From Salinirubellus salinus (GTDB taxonomy: Archaea; Halobacteriota; Halobacteria; Halobacteriales; Haloarculaceae): DNA of 64,000 bases. The translations under genes and the position numbers were made by a program. Shown here piece after piece: positions 2,075 to 38,514 of this stretch (position 1 is its first letter; each line of letters starts with the position of its first letter). Under the pieces are notes generated by a model. The model did not search any database and was not told where the DNA came from. It saw only the letters and a program-made list of their open reading frames with translations. The DNA lies in the NCBI RefSeq assembly GCF_025231485.1, contig NZ_CP104003.1, positions 2,604,001-2,668,000 on the forward strand, written 5' to 3'.

Positions 2075-2872
2075 TCAGACCTCGCTCACGTCGCGAGCGC
2101 GGGCGACCCCGCGAGCGACGAGGCCGGCCTGCGCCCCCGCGGTGAACCCCGCGTCGACGTTGACCACGGAGAGCGCCGTGCAGGACTGGAGCATCCCGAC
2201 CAGCGCGGCCTCGCCGTCGCCGCCCGCCCCGTAGCCGTTCGAGACGGGGAGGCCGACGAGGGGCACGTCGACGAGCCCGGCGAGGACGGTCGGGAGCGCC
2301 CCCTCGCGACCGGCCGCGACGACGAGCACGTCCATCTCCCGGAGGGCCGGGAGCGCGTCGAACAGCCGGGCGATGCCGGCGACGCCCACGTCGTCGACGC
2401 GCCGGACCTCGAGTCCCATCTCGCGGACCACCGCGGCTGCCTCGCCGGCCGGCATCGCGTCCGAGGTGCCCGCGGTGACGACGCCGACGACGCCGTCGAG
2501 TTCGGGCGGTTCGTAGTCGGGGGCGTGGACGACCACGGTCAGCGCCCGCGGATCGTACTCGACGCCGACGGCGGGGTCGTGCTCCTCGGCGGCGCTCCGG
2601 ACCGCCGCGGCCGTCGCCTCGTCCGCGCGGGTGACGAGCGCGTGGCCGGTCGTCTCGAGGGCGTCGGCCGCCAGCGCGGCGGTCTCGGCTGTCGTCTTGC
2701 CGTCGGCGAGCACCGCCTCGGGCACCCCACTCCGTGACTCGCGGGCGGCGTCGAACCGGCCCGCCTCCCCGGTCACGTAGCCGCCGAGGGCGGCCTCCGC
2801 GGCCGCCGCCGAGAGCTCACCCTCCGCGACGGCCTCCAGTACTCCGCGCAGGTCGCGGTCCGTCTCGTCCAT
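2075..2872 (-). CDS. larB: LarB, nickel-pincer cofactor synthase (AIR carboxylase-like)
   Basis: 265 residues from ATG 2872. LarB carboxylates and hydrolyses nicotinic acid adenine dinucleotide, the first step of the nickel-pincer nucleotide used by lactate racemase (family knowledge). The C-terminal half is a PurE-like Rossmann domain: GVVGVVTAGTSDAMPAGEAA, DVLVVAAGREGALPTVLAGL, and the family-typical SNGYGAGGDGEAAL near residue 210. The N-terminal 60 residues contain a helical region (LRGVLEAVAEGELSAAAAEAAL). The frame stays open to a GTG at 3047-3049, which would add 59 Arg/Ala-rich residues; I consider that a leader rather than protein. No LarC or LarE is in the window. Confidence 0.88.
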   Translation of the reverse strand: MDETDRDLRGVLEAVAEGELSAAAAEAALGGYVTGEAGRFDAARESRSGVPEAVLADGKTTAETAALAADALETTGHALVTRADEATAAAVRSAAEEHDPAVGVEYDPRALTVVVHAPDYEPPELDGVVGVVTAGTSDAMPAGEAAAVVREMGLEVRRVDDVGVAGIARLFDALPALREMDVLVVAAGREGALPTVLAGLVDVPLVGLPVSNGYGAGGDGEAALVGMLQSCTALSVVNVDAGFTAGAQAGLVARGVARARDVSEV

Positions 2873-2930
2873 GGCCGCCGGTCGCGGCCGACGGAGGTGT
2901 GCCTTCCGTCTCGTCCTGGCGGCGGCACGA

Positions 2931-2959
2931 CGCGCGCGAGCGTCAGACGCTCGCGCGCG
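2931..2959. promoter_or_regulatory. Perfect 13-bp GC hairpin upstream of larB
   Basis: Arms CGCGCGCGAGCGT (2931-2943) and ACGCTCGCGCGCG (2947-2959) are exact inverted complements around a 3-nt loop. It lies 59 nt in front of the larB start. A TATA-like GTTTAGGC on the minus strand near 3075 would place larB transcription start near 3049, so the hairpin would be in the 5' leader of the mRNA. Confidence 0.6.
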
Positions 2960-3115
2960 AGGTGGCCGACGAGCCGCGGTTGGGGCCGTGACTGGCCGAT
3001 TCGGGGTGCCGATCGGCCCGTCGTCGGGCTGTCTATCAGGGTCGTTCACGCTCTCGACCCCCTCGAACCGGCCTAAACCCCCGCGAGAACCGGCGAGGAC
3101 GCCCCTGAACGGGAA

Positions 3116-3125
3116 CTATTATAAA
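3116..3125 (+). promoter_or_regulatory. TATA box of the DUF1931 gene
   Basis: CTATTATAAA is centred 29 nt before ATG 3150, the spacing expected for a leaderless haloarchaeal transcript. It is among the most AT-rich spots in the neighbourhood. Confidence 0.75.
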
Positions 3126-3149
3126 GGGGGCTACTGTACGCCATCCCGT

Positions 3150-3317
3150 ATGGCAGACCTGATCGTCAAGGCCGCTGTGAAGGAAGCGCTCGATGACATG
3201 AACGTCGCCTCGGACTTCTACGACGCGCTCGACGAGGAAGTCGCCGAGCTGCTCGAGGACGCCGCCCGGCGTGCCTCGGAGAACGACCGCAAGACGGTCC
3301 AGCCGCGCGACCTGTAA
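3150..3317 (+). CDS. DUF1931 single histone-fold protein
   Basis: 55 residues, ATG 3150. The sequence MADLIVKAAVKEAL..MNVASDFYDALDEEVAELLEDAARRASENDRKTVQPRDL (abbreviated) is helical with the histone-fold ending T-V-Q-P-R-D-L, which is the last loop and helix cap of histone folds. The family is small, near-invariant across haloarchaea and related to archaeal histones, but lacks most basic DNA-contact residues (net acidic here), so a DNA-packing role is unproven. It has its own strong TATA box 29 nt upstream and is probably monocistronic. The gene is convergent with rpiA. Confidence 0.85.
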   Translation: MADLIVKAAVKEALDDMNVASDFYDALDEEVAELLEDAARRASENDRKTVQPRDL

Positions 3318-3375
3318 GCCGGTTAGACCCCCCAACTTTCTTTCGACGCCACCACCCGAGAGCCGCGCGGCTCGC

Positions 3376-31165: not shown

Positions 31166-33222
31166 CCGCCGCCGACCTTCTCTGACCCGCGGGCCTGATC
31201 GGCACGGCGACGGGCCTGCTCGAACCGGCGTTCAGACGCCCGGACCAGCGGGTCGGGGAGGTCCTCGCGCGCCTCGGTCAGCCGGGTCGCGGCCCGGTCG
31301 AGCGCGTCGGAGACCGCTTCGAGCGCCCGGTCTGCCCCCGGCGTATCACCCGTCTCGGCGCGCTCTGCGGCCCGGCGCGCCGCCTCCGCGATGGCGTCGA
31401 TCGCCCGTGCCAGCCCACGGACCGGGACGGCGTCGTCGGTCGAGTCGTCCTCCTCGGTCGCGCGGACGGCGGCCGCAGTCTCCGCCGCCACGTCCGCCAC
31501 GTACGTCGCCAGCGGGGCCTTCCCAGTCCGGGGGTTCGCCACCTCCTCGCGGGTGGACTCGGCGGGGTCCGGGTTGACGCGGAACGCACCCACCTCGTCG
31601 TTCTCGTCGCGGACCTCCGTGGTGTAGGCGCCGCCGCGGTGGACGTAGACCGCGTCCTCGCCGTCGAGCGGGGCGTCGTAGAGCCGGCCGGCGAAGTCGT
31701 CCTCGACGGCGAGACGGGTGAGCGCGTCGTCGCTCGCCGCCCCGTCGACGGCGAGTCTCGTCGCGTTCTCGCGGGCGACGAGCGGTATCTCGCCGTCGAC
31801 GCCCGCCACCGTCGGGCCATCCGCGGCGACACCGACCGTCTCGCTGTGGGGGGCAGTGCCGGCGGCGTTGACGGTCAGGCGGTGCTCGCCCTCGGGCACG
31901 TCCCGGACGGCGACGACCCCAGAGAAGGAGGGGACGGCCTCCGGGTCCGATTCGAGGAGGGCGAACGCCTCGACGGCGAGGTCGCCGGTCGTCACCCCCT
32001 CGCCGTCGGGGGCGTCGTCGTTCGAGACGGACTCGCTGACCGCCGCGAGGACGGCGTTGACCGGCGCCGGGTCGCCGATGGCCTCGTACCGGTCGGCCAG
32101 CGCCTGTCGGTGCCGCGGGTCGGTGATGTCCGCGGCGGGGTTCGTGTAGCGTGGCTGGCTCCACGGCGTGCTCGTGGTGGTGATGTGGCCGGCGACGGCG
32201 TCCTCGGCGAACTGGGGGACGGCGAACTCGAAGCTCAACTGCGGGCCGACGAACGCGTCGACGTCCTCGACCTCGCTCGCCGGGACGAGGTCGTAGCCCA
32301 CGTCGAACTCGGCGTCGCGGTCCGCGTGGCCGAACGTCCGACCCGTCCCGCGCAGTGGGAGGTCCTCGGGCGGGGAGGTGAGTTCGTCGAGCGACCGAAC
32401 CGTGAGCGACTCGTCGACGAGGTCGTCACGCGAGACGGCCGGGAGCCGCTCGTGGTCGTAGACCGGCGCTCCGTCGAGTTCCGGCACGAGGAACGGGAGG
32501 CGCCCACCCTCGTCGCGGGGGAGGCCGTAGGCGAACGGGAGGTCGGCGAGCGACTCGAGCCCGGAGACGGCGCTGTTGGTCACGTCCGCGAACGTGTCGC
32601 CAGTGGGCAGTCGCTGGAACCGGTCGAGCACGTCGTTCAGCGAGAGGGCGGAGGAGTGTGAGCCGAGTTCCGCGAGGACGCGGGGGGTCCGCTCGGGGTC
32701 CGGGTCGAGGAACTCGTTGTTGGGGACCCTCCGGGAGTGTGAGCTGGCGACGTGGAGCTGTGGGTCCCCTGTCTCCCGGTCCACGAACACGTGCAGCACC
32801 TCCCAGTCGTGCCAGTGGAAGTTCGTCGTGAACTGGTCGAACGCGGAGTAGAACCAGAACTGGACGACCGTGAGCGGGGACTCGTCGTAGCTGACGGCGT
32901 GGTAGAACACCGTCGGGTCCGGGGCGTCGGTCTCGCGGCGGGCCTCGGTGTAGCCGTTCAGCGCGTCGAAGCCGTCCACGACCGTCTCCCCCTCGCGCTC
33001 GCTCGCGTAGGGCCGCGGGTCCGTCGGGAACCAGACCTCCGCCTCGTCGAAGTAGAGCGTGGGGGCGAACCGCTCGGCGAGATCGCGGGCCTCGTCTCCG
33101 GGGACGGGCGTGGTCGTCCCGTCGTCGCCGGGCGAGAGGGCGGAACAGCCGGCGGCGGAGACGGTGAGCGAGGCCGCCACCGCGCCGAGCACCTCGCGGC
33201 GAGTGGCGTGGGCGCGTCGCAT
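31138..33222 (-). CDS. Tat lipoprotein with Vps62/necrosis-protein-like domain
   Basis: 694 residues from ATG 33220-33222. The Tat-type signal (RRAHATRREVLGAVAAS) ends with lipobox AAGC (Cys26). The next 170 residues (PTLYFDEAEVWFPTD, FYHAVSYDES, VVQFWFYSAFDQFTTNFHWHDWEVLHVFVD) recall the Vps62/DUF946 and NPP1-type beta-sandwich proteins, with the tell-tale HDWE. Then a long beta-rich part and, after residue 520, a helical Ala/Glu/Arg-rich tail (coiled-coil-like). A surface-exposed binding or enzymatic role is inference only. Confidence 0.75.
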   Translation of the reverse strand: MRRAHATRREVLGAVAASLTVSAAGCSALSPGDDGTTTPVPGDEARDLAERFAPTLYFDEAEVWFPTDPRPYASEREGETVVDGFDALNGYTEARRETDAPDPTVFYHAVSYDESPLTVVQFWFYSAFDQFTTNFHWHDWEVLHVFVDRETGDPQLHVASSHSRRVPNNEFLDPDPERTPRVLAELGSHSSALSLNDVLDRFQRLPTGDTFADVTNSAVSGLESLADLPFAYGLPRDEGGRLPFLVPELDGAPVYDHERLPAVSRDDLVDESLTVRSLDELTSPPEDLPLRGTGRTFGHADRDAEFDVGYDLVPASEVEDVDAFVGPQLSFEFAVPQFAEDAVAGHITTTSTPWSQPRYTNPAADITDPRHRQALADRYEAIGDPAPVNAVLAAVSESVSNDDAPDGEGVTTGDLAVEAFALLESDPEAVPSFSGVVAVRDVPEGEHRLTVNAAGTAPHSETVGVAADGPTVAGVDGEIPLVARENATRLAVDGAASDDALTRLAVEDDFAGRLYDAPLDGEDAVYVHRGGAYTTEVRDENDEVGAFRVNPDPAESTREEVANPRTGKAPLATYVADVAAETAAAVRATEEDDSTDDAVPVRGLARAIDAIAEAARRAAERAETGDTPGADRALEAVSDALDRAATRLTEAREDLPDPLVRASERRFEQARRRADQARGSEKVGGGQATDESGT

Positions 33223-33348
33223 GGCGCAGACCGACGGCCGGAACCCGGATACGTCTTCTGGCCTCGGTACCGCGCCGCTCGGACGCGATGGACGGGAGTG
33301 GGCGAGCGCCGAGTGTGTCGTTATGCCGCTCGAGATTCGAGGTTCGGC

Positions 33349-33792
33349 ATGCGATTCCCGGCCGTGAGCGGGTCGAACCTCGCGGGCGAGCGGTTCGCGC
33401 TCCCCGGCGACCTCGACCTCCCGGCGCTCGTCCTGGTCGCGTTCCGGCGTCACCAGCAGTCGACGGTCGACACGTGGCTCGACCTGGTCGACCCACTCGC
33501 CGAACGCGGCGTCGCGACGTACGAACTCCCGACCATCGGGCGCTACGCGCTGCCCGCCCGCTGGGTCATCGACGGCGGGATGCGCGCGGGCATCCCCGAC
33601 CGGGCCGCACGCGAGCGGACCATCACGCTCTACACGGACGTGCGGGCGTTCCGCGACACGCTCGCGCTCCCGGACGAGCGTGTCGTCGCGCTCCTCCTCG
33701 ACGCCGGGGGGGAGGTGGTCACCCGGTTCACCGGCGCCCGCGGCGAGACGACCGCCGAGGACGTGGCCACGGCGCTCGGGGCGGCCCCCTGA
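33349..33792 (+). CDS. Thioredoxin-fold-like haloarchaeal protein (no CxxC)
   Basis: 147 residues, ATG 33349, TATA-like CGTTATGCC 27 nt upstream. The sequence PALVLVAFRRHQQSTVDTWLD, PTIGRYALPARWVIDGG, ERTITLYTDVRAFRDTLAL and RVVALLLDAGGEVVTRFTG follow a thioredoxin/ATP10-like order: strand, helix, extended loop, strand, helix. The redox motif is missing (RRHQQST replaces CxxC), so it is unlikely to be an oxidoreductase. I cannot name the family. Confidence 0.65.
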   Translation: MRFPAVSGSNLAGERFALPGDLDLPALVLVAFRRHQQSTVDTWLDLVDPLAERGVATYELPTIGRYALPARWVIDGGMRAGIPDRAARERTITLYTDVRAFRDTLALPDERVVALLLDAGGEVVTRFTGARGETTAEDVATALGAAP

Positions 33793-34169: not shown

Positions 34170-36281
34170 TCAGAAGCTCCCCAGCCGTGCGTCTCGCGTC
34201 CCCGCGAGCCGTCGGCGGATACGCGACTCGTCCCACCCGAGCGGCGACAGGACGCTCTCGGCCGCCCGCACCAGCCGCGCCGCGTAGCAGTCGGCGTCGT
34301 ACCGGTCGGGCGACTCGTGAGCCAGCCGCACCCGGTCGACCGAGTCGGCGTCGTCGTCCGCCACCACGTAGCGCACGCGCTGGCCGGGGTGGACGGGGAG
34401 GCCCGCCCGTTCGGCCCGTTCGAGCGCCGCGGCGTTCCGGGTGGCGCGGTCGTACTCCTCAGCCGGCTTCGACACCCGCTGGACGATGGTGAGTTCGTCG
34501 GGGGGCACGTCGCCCGCCCGGAGCGTCTCGAGGTGGCGGGCCAGCCGGTCACAGACCGCCTCGGGCGACCGGGTGCGGTCGAACGCCCGAATCAGGTCGC
34601 GCTGGGCGTCCGCGACGAACGGGGAGGTGCCGTCCTGCCGGCACTCGATACCGCGGTACTTGAACGTCCGCTCGTCGCCCGAGACCCGCCCGAAGTACTT
34701 CGTCAGCGCCCCGCCCGCCCCCTCCCGACGGGGGACGAACGCCACCCAGTCGTACTCGGCCTCGTACTCCAGTTCGATGCGGACCTCCTCGCTGACGTCG
34801 CGGGCGAGTTCGCGGAGGGGTGTCGGGTCGGTCGCGTCCTCGGCCTCGGTCACCCACACGCTGTCGACGATGCCGTGGACGACCCGCCAGCCGCCGGCTT
34901 CGAGGCGCTCCTTCGCCGTCAGCATCACGTCGCGGGCGTAGGCGTTGATGGCCTCGTGGGCCTCGATACGGCCGAACTTGGCGTTCTTGAACCCCTGGTA
35001 GCCGAAGCAGGAGACGAGGATCCACTTGATGGCGTCGGCCTGCCCCTGCAGGACCTCGCGGCGGTCCGGGTCGGTCGTCTCTGCGAGTTCCGCCTTGACC
35101 TCGGCCCGGTCGGTCACGAGCGGTTCGAGCACCTCGGGCAGGTAGCCGTCCGCGTCGCAGATGGCGTAGCCCAGCTCGGGCACGTCCTCGCGCCCCCGGT
35201 GACAGGCACACCGCACGGTCTCGGGGCTGACGTTGCGCGTGACGATGACGTTCGGATACAGGGAGGCGAAGTCGAGTTCGTGGACCGACTCGTGGACGCC
35301 CACGTCCGGTGCGAACGTGAAGCCGCCACGGTCGGCGGTGTGGAGCTGTCGGGCGGTCTTGAACAGCTCCGGACGCCACGCGCGCCACGGGACCAGCACG
35401 CCACGCTCGCGGGCCGCGCGAATCTGGATGGCCGTCAGGACGGTGCCGATTGAGGCCCACGCGAGTTCCTGCAGGGGTTTCCACGACCGGCCGACGAGGT
35501 CCAGCGCCCCCGCGAGGTTCGCCGCCGAGAGGAGGAACGTGTTCGAGTGGTCCAGCACGACCCGTCCCGGGACGTTGTACCGCGCCGGCGAGTGCCCGAC
35601 CCGGCCGTACGAGGAGTAGGTCGAGCGCCCGGCCAACTGCTGGAACCCCGGCACGCGGCCGAGGCGGTAGTCCCGCCCCTGCTCGGCCGCGCGCTCGTGG
35701 AGCCCGGCGAGCAGGTCGCTCCCGGACACCGAGAGCACGTCCGGGTCCGCCGCGTGGACCCGCTCTTCGACCGTCGCCGCGAGGTCCGCCGGGTCGCCGG
35801 TCAGCGTCTCGCCGTCCAGTTCGACCTCCCGTGGTCCACCGTCACGCGCCCGTTCCACCTCGCTCGCCCGGAGTTCGAGGACGGAGAGTTCGCGCTCCGG
35901 CGTCGGGTCCAGCCCCCGGTCCAGACAGTAGCGGAACTCCCGCGAGTGGTCGACGCCGAACAGGCGGTAGGTGCCCGGGGCGCCCCACCCCGCGACGGTG
36001 CGGGCCACGTCGAGCACCCGGTCCACGTCACGCACGTCGGCCCGGAGCACCCGTTCGGCGTCGTGCCGGAACCCCCGTCGCCACCGCTCGTAGCGGGTCT
36101 CGGTCACGGCGGGCAGGTCGGCGACGTGCGGGCGGATGCGGTCCAGCGCCGCCGTGTCCCCGTCCTCGTGGGCGACCGAGACGGTCGGCCGGTAGTCGGT
36201 GTCGCGGTCGGGCCGTGCGCCGTCGTCGGTCAGCGACCACGCCAGCACCGCGCCGTCGCGGTGGTCAATCTTGAACGGCAT
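34170..36281 (-). CDS. polB2: PolB2-like family-B DNA polymerase with altered motif C
   Basis: 703 residues, ATG 36279-36281. Motif A is intact: DFASLYP (Asp337). Motif B reads K419-WILVSCFG, with Val and Phe where Asn and Tyr are usual. Motif C, canonically Y-G-D-T-D-S, is HGIVDS (residues 469-474): the first Asp is Ile471, only Asp473 remains. After it KYFGRV...KYRGIECRQ fits the KKxY-type thumb motif. The proofreading domain looks degenerate: no DxE in the ExoI area (LSVLELRAS) and no clear ExoII/III. At 703 aa it is shorter than replicative PolB1/3. This fits archaeal PolB2, once thought inactive; recent work on crenarchaeal PolB2 links it to DNA damage. Last gene of a three-gene operon. 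Confidence 0.85.
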   Translation of the reverse strand: MPFKIDHRDGAVLAWSLTDDGARPDRDTDYRPTVSVAHEDGDTAALDRIRPHVADLPAVTETRYERWRRGFRHDAERVLRADVRDVDRVLDVARTVAGWGAPGTYRLFGVDHSREFRYCLDRGLDPTPERELSVLELRASEVERARDGGPREVELDGETLTGDPADLAATVEERVHAADPDVLSVSGSDLLAGLHERAAEQGRDYRLGRVPGFQQLAGRSTYSSYGRVGHSPARYNVPGRVVLDHSNTFLLSAANLAGALDLVGRSWKPLQELAWASIGTVLTAIQIRAARERGVLVPWRAWRPELFKTARQLHTADRGGFTFAPDVGVHESVHELDFASLYPNVIVTRNVSPETVRCACHRGREDVPELGYAICDADGYLPEVLEPLVTDRAEVKAELAETTDPDRREVLQGQADAIKWILVSCFGYQGFKNAKFGRIEAHEAINAYARDVMLTAKERLEAGGWRVVHGIVDSVWVTEAEDATDPTPLRELARDVSEEVRIELEYEAEYDWVAFVPRREGAGGALTKYFGRVSGDERTFKYRGIECRQDGTSPFVADAQRDLIRAFDRTRSPEAVCDRLARHLETLRAGDVPPDELTIVQRVSKPAEEYDRATRNAAALERAERAGLPVHPGQRVRYVVADDDADSVDRVRLAHESPDRYDADCYAARLVRAAESVLSPLGWDESRIRRRLAGTRDARLGSF

Positions 36282-36525
36282 CCGGGTCGAGCGCCGCCTC
36301 CAGTTCGGCGATGCGTCGTTCCTGTTCGACGAGCGCCGAGACCAGCAGGGGAAACAGCGGTTCGGCGTGGTTGAGTTGCCCCGCGGCGTCGGCGTGCGCC
36401 CGGCCGTGCCCGAACACCGCGTCGAAGTGTGGCTGGTCGCGCCGCCGGAGCGCCCGACGGTAGGCCGACCACCGCGACTCCACCGCGGTCAGCGTGTCGC
36501 GGTAGGTGGGGTTGGTGCGGCCCAT
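36265..36525 (-). CDS. 86-residue coiled-coil protein of the PolB2 cassette
   Basis: ATG 36523-36525. The N-terminus (MGRTNPTYRDTLTAVESRW, then AYRRALRRRDQPHFDAVF) is basic and helical; HAEPLFPLLVSALVEQE and RRIAELEAALD form a coiled coil. It overlaps the RadA-like stop (ATGA, 36525) and the PolB2 start by 17 nt, so it is translated between the two. I know similar haloarchaeal proteins of unknown function. Its position suggests an adapter linking the recombinase-like and polymerase-like proteins (inference). Confidence 0.75.
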   Translation of the reverse strand: MGRTNPTYRDTLTAVESRWSAYRRALRRRDQPHFDAVFGHGRAHADAAGQLNHAEPLFPLLVSALVEQERRIAELEAALDPDAVQD

Positions 36526-37286
36526 CAGACGACCCCCGCGGCGGGGGTGCGGCCGTGGACGGCCTGCCGGCGTTCGAGCACCCGTGCCCAGAACGCGAGC
36601 GTGGTCTGGACCGTGCCGCCGTCGTCGGACTGCGTCCGACTGCCCGAGGGGCTCCGCCCCTCGCTGTCGTCGTAGACGAGCGTCTCGAACCCGTCGCCGA
36701 CGAACCGGGGGCCGAAACGCGTCTCTCGACACGTGACGGTGGCGTCCGCCCGGTCCGCGACGGGCGCGGTCAGCCCGTCTGCCGCGCGACGGGTGACGAG
36801 GACGGCCACCTCGCGTTCGTCAGCCAGCGCCGCGAGTCGCTCCGCGACCCTCTCGACCATCCGCCCGGCCTCGCGGTCGGTGCAGTCGCCGTCCCGGTAG
36901 TGCGCGTCGACCCACGGTACCACGACGAGCGACGCGGTCGGCGGGAACGACTCGCAGGCCCGGCGAACGAGCGTCTGGTGCTGGTAGGCGGTGAACGCAC
37001 GGGCCACCCGGACCCGTTCGAGGAGCGCGAGCGAGGGGGCGAGTCGGGCGAGGTTCCGGGTGGTGGCGTGCCCCCCGCTGTCGACCCAGACGGCCTCGCC
37101 GGCCCCCCGGAGCAGGTGGTCGAGGACGAGCGAGTCCAGCGGGCCGACCGCCCGGCTCTCGGCGTCGAGCAGGGTCAGCCCGGATTCGAGCGTCGGGAGC
37201 CGCGGGACGGCCTCGGGGGCGGGCGGGTCGGTGGCGTTCGAGTCACGCGGAGTCGGTGCGTCGAGTCTGGTCTGCCGTCGGTCCAT
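36525..37286 (-). CDS. RadA/RecA-like protein without Walker A (PolB2 cassette)
   Basis: 253 residues, ATG 37284-37286. The core is recognisable as a RadA relative: VARAFTAYQHQTL (residues 94-106; RadA has VARAYNSNHQ) and SLVVVPWVDAHYRD (119-132) at the Walker B strand. The expected P-loop is WVDSGGHATTRNL (67-79), without GKT/GKS, so ATP binding is probably lost. The C-terminal TVTCRETRFGPRFVGDGFETLVYDDSEG resembles the L2/beta-strand region. First gene of the operon; downstream overlap with the 86-aa gene is 3 nt (ATGA). Architecture parallels bacterial ImuA-ImuB-DnaE2 (analogy only). Confidence 0.75.
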   Translation of the reverse strand: MDRRQTRLDAPTPRDSNATDPPAPEAVPRLPTLESGLTLLDAESRAVGPLDSLVLDHLLRGAGEAVWVDSGGHATTRNLARLAPSLALLERVRVARAFTAYQHQTLVRRACESFPPTASLVVVPWVDAHYRDGDCTDREAGRMVERVAERLAALADEREVAVLVTRRAADGLTAPVADRADATVTCRETRFGPRFVGDGFETLVYDDSEGRSPSGSRTQSDDGGTVQTTLAFWARVLERRQAVHGRTPAAGVV

Positions 37287-37331
37287 ACAGAGACAGACGC
37301 CGGCCGACCGGGATGTACGTCGGCGCGTGGC

Positions 37332-37349
37332 TGCCGATAGTTCCGATAG
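37332..37349 (+). repeat. Tandem 9-bp repeats upstream of the RadA-like operon
   Basis: TGCCGATAG followed directly by TTCCGATAG (37332-37340, 37341-37349). The same period of nine with core CCGAT occurs three times in front of orc1 (38488-38514). The position is 46-63 nt before the RadA-like ATG, where a BRE/TATA or an operator would sit. Confidence 0.55.
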
Positions 37350-37406: not shown

Positions 37407-37442
37407 TCCGATTCCGCTTCCACTTCCGATTCCGATTCCGCT
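37407..37442 (+). repeat. Six hexamer repeats at the end of orc1
   Basis: TCCGAT, TCCGCT, TCCACT, TCCGAT, TCCGAT, TCCGCT in a row, ending on the orc1 stop codon region (37442-37444). The hexamer shares the core with the promoter repeats nearby. Confidence 0.6.
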
Positions 37443-38443
37443 CAGGCCACCCGGTAGACCCGCCCCCGGTTCTCCCCCTCCGCGACGATGAGGTCGTAGG
37501 TGGCGAGCTTGTTCAGGTAGGTCCGCACGGTCCGGTCGGACCGGGGGTCCGAGACGCGCTCGCGGTAGGTGCCGTAGAGCGTGCCGGGGTCGACGGTGCC
37601 GTGCTCCTCGATAATCTCGTAGAGCACCTTCTGGTGGGGTTTCAGCTGGTCGAGGTTCTTGCGCTGTATCTCCTGTCGGGCCTCGGGGACGGCCCCGCGG
37701 ATGACGGACTCGGGGATGCGGTCCAGTCCCTGCCGGCCGGCCTCGCGGGCGGCGGCCCGGAGCGTCGAGATGGCGATGCGGGCGTCGCCGGCGGCGGCGT
37801 CGGCGATGTACCGGAGGTCGGCGTCGCGGACGGCGTCCTCGGTCAGCCCGCGGTCGACGCGCGCCCGGAGGATGGCCGCGAGTTCGTCGATACCGTACTT
37901 CTCGAAGCGGATACGGCGCGAGCCGTGGAGGCGGCTGACGAGGCGGTCGTCGAGGCCGGCGAACAGGTCCTCCTCGCGGTTGGCGACGAGCAGCATCGAC
38001 ACCTCGTGGGTCCGGTAGAGGTCGTAGAGCACGCTCGGCTCCTCCAGCTGGTCCACCTCGTCGAGGACGACGACGTACGGCGGGCCGTCGTACGCCTGCA
38101 CCCGTTCGAGGAGCACGTCCGTCGGCGTCGACTGCCGGTGGATGTCGATGGTCCGGTCGAGTCCCTCGAGGATGCGATAGAGCACCCGGTAGCGCGAGTA
38201 GTTCTGCCAGCAGTTGACGTACTGGGTCCGGATGTCGATGACCGCCTCGCGGAGCTGGCCGACGGTGTAGCGCGCGAGACAGGTCTTGCCGGTCCCGCTC
38301 GGACCGAACAGGAACGTCGTCTCGGCCGGTTCGCCGTCGGTGACCGGGTCCAGCGCGTTCGAGAGCGCGTCGACCTCGCCGTCCCGGTGGACGACCTCGC
38401 TGGGCACGAACTCCGGGTCGAGGACCCGCGCGTCTCGGATCAT
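37442..38443 (-). CDS. orc1: Orc1/Cdc6-type AAA+ ATPase
   Basis: 333 residues from ATG 38441-38443 (an ATG 27 nt earlier, 38470, is also open). AAA+ initiator: Walker A GPSGTGKT (residues 47-54), Walker B YVVVLDEVDQLE, sensor 1 LLVANREEDL, sensor 2 area GDARIAISTLRAAA with Arg, then a C-terminal winged-helix (QKVLYEIIEEHGTVDPG, RVSDPRSDRTVRTYLNKLATYDLI). Haloarchaea have many Orc copies and only some fire origins; this is a shorter type. I see no AT-rich unwinding element or repeated long ORB sequence nearby, so a non-origin role is possible. Confidence 0.93.
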   Translation of the reverse strand: MIRDARVLDPEFVPSEVVHRDGEVDALSNALDPVTDGEPAETTFLFGPSGTGKTCLARYTVGQLREAVIDIRTQYVNCWQNYSRYRVLYRILEGLDRTIDIHRQSTPTDVLLERVQAYDGPPYVVVLDEVDQLEEPSVLYDLYRTHEVSMLLVANREEDLFAGLDDRLVSRLHGSRRIRFEKYGIDELAAILRARVDRGLTEDAVRDADLRYIADAAAGDARIAISTLRAAAREAGRQGLDRIPESVIRGAVPEARQEIQRKNLDQLKPHQKVLYEIIEEHGTVDPGTLYGTYRERVSDPRSDRTVRTYLNKLATYDLIVAEGENRGRVYRVA

Positions 38444-38487
38444 GGGGGTGGGTTCCGGAGCCAGCGGCATAAGTGGAACCGGGCGGT

Positions 38488-38514
38488 TTCCGATTCTTCC
38501 GATACTACCGATTC
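38488..38514 (+). repeat. Three tandem 9-bp repeats upstream of orc1
   Basis: TTCCGATTC, TTCCGATAC, TACCGATTC in direct succession. They lie 45-71 nt before the orc1 ATG chosen at 38443. They share the nonamer period and CCGAT core with 37332-37349. Confidence 0.6.

Follow-up and report, generated by a model that had tools for sequence, protein, structure and literature searches.

A probable haloarchaeal PolB2 mutasome operon in Salinirubellus salinus and a direct repeat common to its promoter and that of the adjacent orc gene

Gene content of the locus

The window analysed here is a stretch of 64,000 nucleotides from the chromosome of Salinirubellus salinus (contig NZ_CP104003.1). It contains a single minus-strand operon with the gene order iRadA-PPB2-PolB2, and an orc gene is localized directly upstream on the same strand. 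The features are the following (positions of the window):

34170-36281, minus strand: PolB2, a family-B DNA polymerase of 703 amino acids with a predicted decayed exonuclease domain
34860-34877, minus strand: motif C of PolB2, HGIVDS, where the first Asp is replaced by Ile and the second Asp is kept
36265-36525, minus strand: PPB2 (arCOG07300 type), a putative helical protein of 86 amino acids starting with MGRTNPTYRD
36514-36525, minus strand: MGRT N-terminal arm of PPB2
36525-37286, minus strand: iRadA, 253 amino acids, Rad51/RadA fold without Walker A, a PolB2 partner of the arCOG07763 type
37332-37348, minus strand: direct repeat of the iRadA promoter (TATCGGAACTATCGGCA); the TATA-like sequence TACAT (37313-37317) follows 14 nt downstream
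37442-38443, minus strand: Orc1/Cdc6 paralogue, starting at the conserved MIRDARVL, with Walker A (GPSGTGKT) and Walker B intact
38488-38513, minus strand: direct repeat of the orc promoter (AATCGGTAGTATCGGAAGAATCGGAA); TTAT (38469-38472) follows 15 nt downstream

The stop codon of iRadA and the start codon of PPB2 share one base (TGATG), and PPB2 and PolB2 overlap by 17 nt. A first reading, made from the sequence only, had described a minus-strand operon with overlapping ends that combines a RadA-like protein, an 86-residue protein and a family-B polymerase; all these points are confirmed, and the operon context reaches further upstream than this reading had placed it, to the Orc/Cdc6 gene. 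PolB2 is recognized by the NCBIfam PolB2-type model NF004418 with 1015.5 bits (cut-off 692). In Pfam, iRadA matches Rad51 (E=1e-5) and PPB2 has no significant match. The AlphaFold model of iRadA (m975663d1dc05, pLDDT 83.5) resembles the cores of DMC1, RadA and Rad51 (Foldseek, E 4e-10), and no Walker A motif (P-loop) is present in the sequence, as the sequence-only reading had noticed. iRadA is thus predicted to be a Rad51/RadA homologue devoid of ATPase residues and of the N-terminal domain. Concerning the short motifs, an xGRT N-terminus is found in 62 of 65 PPB2 homologues. A check for clamp-binding (PIP) motifs detected a QTTLAFW-type motif in 62 of 64 iRadA sequences, of which the spacing is unlike that of QxxLxxFF and which is possibly structural. 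A scan for promoters of the bacterial type was uninformative, which is unsurprising in an archaeon.

An operon including the haloarchaeal arCOG07763/arCOG07300 pair, an inactivated RadA and an arORC2 neighbour was described by Makarova in 2014 (PMC4104785). PPB2 and iRadA were named by Timinskas in 2025, where the PolB2 mutasome was modelled as a heteropentamer of one PolB2, one iRadA and three PPB2, with the MGRT arm placed between PolB2 and iRadA (PMC11791011). The locus displays the diagnostic features of this family, namely the MGRT arm, the HGIVDS sequence, an iRadA without Walker A and the upstream Orc/Cdc6 gene, and very probably represents a haloarchaeal PolB2 mutasome operon. The three-gene system is already known, and the locus is an added, well-supported member of the published mutasome family. 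The mutasome-like complex put forward in the sequence-only reading was therefore right in kind (a recombinase-fold protein without ATPase and a small partner) but not new, since both papers had described it.

Conservation and copies of the cassette in Halobacteria

A scan of named genomes with a single protein detected only seven relatives, and co-conservation was therefore studied by whole-genome profile searches of 97 Halobacteria genomes. PolB2 is present in 71 of them, PPB2 in 67 and iRadA in 67. The first reading had proposed to survey whether the triplet recurs in Halobacteria, and it does: for 74 of the 78 near-full polB2 genes, all three genes lie on the same strand within 8.5 kb. Tight triplets account for 56 of the 78 (44 genomes) and interrupted same-strand cassettes, where the gap between PPB2 and PolB2 is comprised between 0.7 and 8.1 kb, for 18; the other four have different arrangements, one being perhaps split by a contig end. 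This three-gene arrangement is far beyond chance. The suggestion of an independent haloarchaeal equivalent did not hold: crenarchaea and bacteria have orthologues too, and the system is therefore not a separate invention of haloarchaea.

The orc gene neighbours iRadA in the loci of many relatives, and haloarchaeal plasmids commonly carry the PolB2 cassette. The genome of the window contains three cassettes, the chromosomal one and two others, one intact and one frameshifted, on a second contig of 249 kb:

31395-33536 of the second contig (L006) and 224484-226624 of the second contig (L007): extra PolB2 cassettes, one intact, the other with frameshifts in both polB2 and iRadA

Several other arrangements were observed. 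Genes (transposase-like and others) are inserted between PPB2 and polB2 over up to 8 kb in 12 loci. In one locus (L112), iRadA-PPB2 is followed by orc and polB2 is absent; this locus resembles the extra two-gene module of Makarova 2014, with orc replacing the polymerase. In Halalkalicoccus sp. CGA53 (L021, positions 2644-3330), a gene for an SRAP protein (SOS response-associated peptidase) is inserted on the opposite strand between orc and iRadA.

A gene of about 215 codons, not present in the window, often follows PPB2 in the interrupted operons of a mostly plasmid-borne sublineage (ten loci, e.g. L071, positions 474-1130). The protein matches RNase_H_2, and DNA_pol_B_exo1 is above the cut-off in one member. 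It keeps the residues D10, E12, D102 and D185 (DEDD), and its model is nearest to the exonuclease domains of PolB. Among the best 13 matches to this protein in the 97 genomes, 12 directly follow PPB2. It may proofread in trans for PolB2; proofreading would then become a separable option of a translesion machine. No mention of such a stand-alone exonuclease was found in the main texts of PMC4104785 and PMC11791011.

A direct repeat in the promoters of the operon and of orc

The two upstream sites of the window belong to an element, the direct repeat [G/T]GAA-N4-5-GGAA, which is found in the orc and iRadA leaders of many relatives. In the window, the second half-site of the iRadA repeat is degenerate (CGGCA). 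The repeat was detected in 35 of 52 non-redundant iRadA leaders (dinucleotide shuffles: 1.09 expected, maximum 4) and in 15 of 26 non-redundant orc leaders (0.41 expected, maximum 3), counts that are inflated by kinship among the leaders; about a third of the iRadA leaders are without the element. When a TATA-like box is required downstream, the repeat is still found in 27 of the 52 iRadA leaders (0.04 expected) and in 14 of the 26 orc leaders (0.05 expected), and the opposite orientation is near chance (2/52 and 2/26, respectively). Wherever repeat and box were both found, the spacing is 15 nt for iRadA (all 29 leaders) and 14-15 nt for orc (all 14 leaders); this constancy was not imposed, because the TATA box was searched between 8 and 25 nt. 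In at least 11 loci, such an element is present both at orc and at the operon.

The pattern TATCGGAANNATCGGMA was searched with up to two mismatches in the 4.4-Mb genome. The two exact sites lie at the iRadA and orc promoters; they match by construction, since these sites of the window served to define the pattern. The informative part is the scarcity of other sites: an overlapping site with two mismatches in the orc leader and two sites with two mismatches elsewhere in the genome. Within the window, there are three matches versus 0.04 expected. From the 150 sites of the pattern TCGGAANNNTCGGAA listed in the 97 genomes, 19 are localized within 3 kb upstream of iRadA. Twenty other sites were inspected: for four of them the gene immediately downstream is an orc paralogue, and another five precede an integrase-like gene (four of these five genes were put through Pfam, one being slightly under the cut-off). 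A conserved leader of about 120 nt precedes the five integrase-like genes, without any match in Rfam. The control with reversed patterns is weak for TCGGAANNNTCGGAA, of which the composition differs on reversal, and useless for ACTTTCACTTTCAC, of which the reverse is nearly the same repeat. No report of a promoter element linking the operon to orc was found in the open-licence literature, an absence that is no proof of novelty.

A second direct repeat, TTTCACTTTCA, was reported by Boubriak (2008; PMC2556686) for Halobacterium promoters induced by UV-B, including that of radA1; its regulator was not named there. The sequence ACTTTC is a form of the hexanucleotide A(N)TTTC of Sulfolobus UV promoters, which is bound by Orc1-2 (PMC9738581, PMC5817253). 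TTTCACTTTCA occurs in 4/52 iRadA and 1/26 orc leaders of the relatives, with none expected. It is present five times in the genome of the window, once upstream of radA, and the genome scan did not find it at the locus of the window, where the GGAA repeat is found; the locus thus has an element of its own at the position occupied by the general motif in other lineages. Thirty haloarchaeal loci with the pattern ACTTTCACTTTCAC were inspected, and radA, an RPA-like gene and top6B are among the genes that follow it, as assigned by reading the sequences. The tandem TTTCAC/ACTTTC was seen upstream of radA, the RPA-like gene and top6B in haloarchaea (eight loci), radA of the genome of the window included.

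The Orc paralogue and other candidate readers of the repeat

The Orc/Cdc6 protein of the window scores 188.3 bits against TIGR02928; its AAA+ motifs are intact and its winged-helix match in Pfam is weak. The Orc1-2 protein of Sulfolobus recognizes ANTTTC in the promoter of its own gene, and other damage-response promoters contain the motif as well (PMC9738581, PMC5817253). ANTTTC is not present in the orc promoter of the window, which contains the GGAA repeat instead, and the tandem ACTTTC form is found at the orc and iRadA promoters of some relatives only. The occurrence of the close form of the repeat at only these two promoters of the genome suggests a damage switch controlled by Orc. By analogy with Orc1-2 of Sulfolobus, we give about an even chance to the reading in which the repeat is bound by the neighbouring Orc paralogue, which would thereby activate its own gene as well as the operon. 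A broader version is more tentative, and we place it a little below even: the Orc would be a dedicated, self-regulating damage factor acting on the GGAA repeat, and related Orcs would be the regulators of the UV motif TTTCACTTTCA, seen as a tandem of Orc1-2 boxes. From the Sulfolobus precedent we infer that, in haloarchaea, one motif or the other may be read by an Orc; if true, an Orc-based damage response would be common to crenarchaea and haloarchaea.

The element could also be a damage operator read by another transcription factor, orc being merely one of its targets. The regulator left unnamed for the Halobacterium UV motif leaves room for such a factor, and in the genome of the window this motif is upstream of radA and of other genes but not at the locus; the joint presence of the element at orc and the operon in at least 11 loci and the precedent of Orc1-2 argue against it, and we regard this reading as rather doubtful. 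It is somewhat less probable still, and in our view unlikely, that the repeats are replication-origin or incompatibility sites read by Orc, which would then be the initiator of an integrated replicon. Archaeal origins do have repeated boxes bound by Orc proteins, many copies of the cassette are plasmid-borne, and among solved structures the Orc of the window is closer to the initiator Orc1 (2qby_A, E 4e-22) than to ORC2 (1w5s, E 6e-15). However, the element faces the gene at a fixed distance of 14-15 nt from the TATA box, its opposite orientation is near chance, and similar sites are found upstream of integrase-like genes.

The Orc switch remains the preferred reading. The element provides a testable answer to a question open since at least 2008, the trigger of the haloarchaeal DNA-damage response, and if the Orc paralogue is the switch, two distant groups of archaea would employ a replication-initiator fold for damage regulation.

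Catalytic residues of PolB2 and proposed function

Motif A of PolB2 (DFASLYP) is intact. Motif C has a single aspartate, as stated in the sequence-only reading, and the first Asp is absent in 46/46 full-length PolB2 relatives; the close relatives with a standard motif C that would have spoken against this reading were thus not found. This loss characterizes the family as a whole and cannot be taken as a sign of inactivity. From an alignment of ten PolB2, we observe that Asp337 of motif A and Asp473, the second Asp of motif C, are invariant. Pfam detects the polymerase domain only, without a match for the exonuclease domain, and the proofreading domain is read from its sequence as probably inactive. 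The purified Dpo2 of Sulfolobus, which has the same change in motif C, shows robust polymerisation, extends primers in translesion synthesis and has no exonuclease activity, and the second Asp of motif C coordinates the metal (PMC8764526). Dpo2 is damage-inducible and the sole source of damage-induced (targeted) mutagenesis in Sulfolobus (PMC7390963). Since Dpo2 polymerises robustly despite the same change, the haloarchaeal PolB2 is more likely active than dead. The phrase "two defective active sites" of the first reading was correct for the missing Walker A and first Asp but overstated as to activity. The proposal that PolB2 is a catalytically dead scaffold, in a complex acting only by remodelling stalled replication forks or by bringing in another polymerase, can appeal to the universal loss of the first Asp, to the unmatched exonuclease domain and to a 2020 review labelling the H. 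volcanii PolB2 as predicted-inactive, but is very improbable given the two invariant aspartates and the efficient Sulfolobus enzyme. The polB2 gene of H. volcanii (HVO_A0065) is localized close to a radA-like gene and can reportedly be deleted.

The cassette probably copies past damaged DNA. Following the Sulfolobus work for the polymerase activity and the published models for the architecture of the complex, PolB2, PPB2 and iRadA would be made together after DNA damage. iRadA would dock on PolB2 where the neighbour in a RadA filament would sit, and a PPB2 trimer would put an MGRT arm into the cleft between PolB2 and iRadA, close to the DNA. PolB2 would then extend distorted or mismatched primer ends beyond the lesion.

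Comparison with known systems

The bacterial ImuA-ImuB-DnaE2 and Pol V mutasomes contain a family C or Y polymerase and other small subunits. They share with the locus the association of a recombinase-fold protein, a small or scaffold partner and a translesion polymerase. The likeness to ImuA-ImuB-DnaE2 noted in the sequence-only reading is that of an analogue; homology is ruled out because the polymerase of the locus belongs to family B and not to the C-family DnaE2.

The published PolB2 mutasome (PMC4104785, PMC11791011) agrees with the locus in its three families and their gene order, in the MGRT arm, in the loss of the first Asp and of the P-loop, and in having orc as a neighbour. In contrast, the window presents a chromosomal copy with two more on a second contig, the promoter element is absent from those descriptions, and the PIP motif is not clear here. 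No report of the promoter repeat or of the stand-alone exonuclease was found in the open-licence literature, and both appear new, unlike the three-gene system. The Dpo2 of Sulfolobus (PMC8764526, PMC7390963) shares the PolB2 family, the change in motif C and the iRadA and PPB2 partners; this enzyme is known in vitro and in vivo, whereas the PolB2 of the window is known from its sequence alone.

Concerning regulation, the Halobacterium UV-B motif TTTCACTTTCA (PMC2556686) is likewise a direct repeat upstream of a TATA box and is also found at some iRadA and orc promoters, but the locus of the window has the GGAA form instead. Finally, in the Orc1-2/DDRE system of Sulfolobales (ANTTTC; PMC9738581, PMC5817253), as here, one motif recurs immediately before the core promoter of both orc and the damage genes; the element of the window differs in being a GGAA direct repeat, and the tandem ACTTTC is restricted to some relatives.
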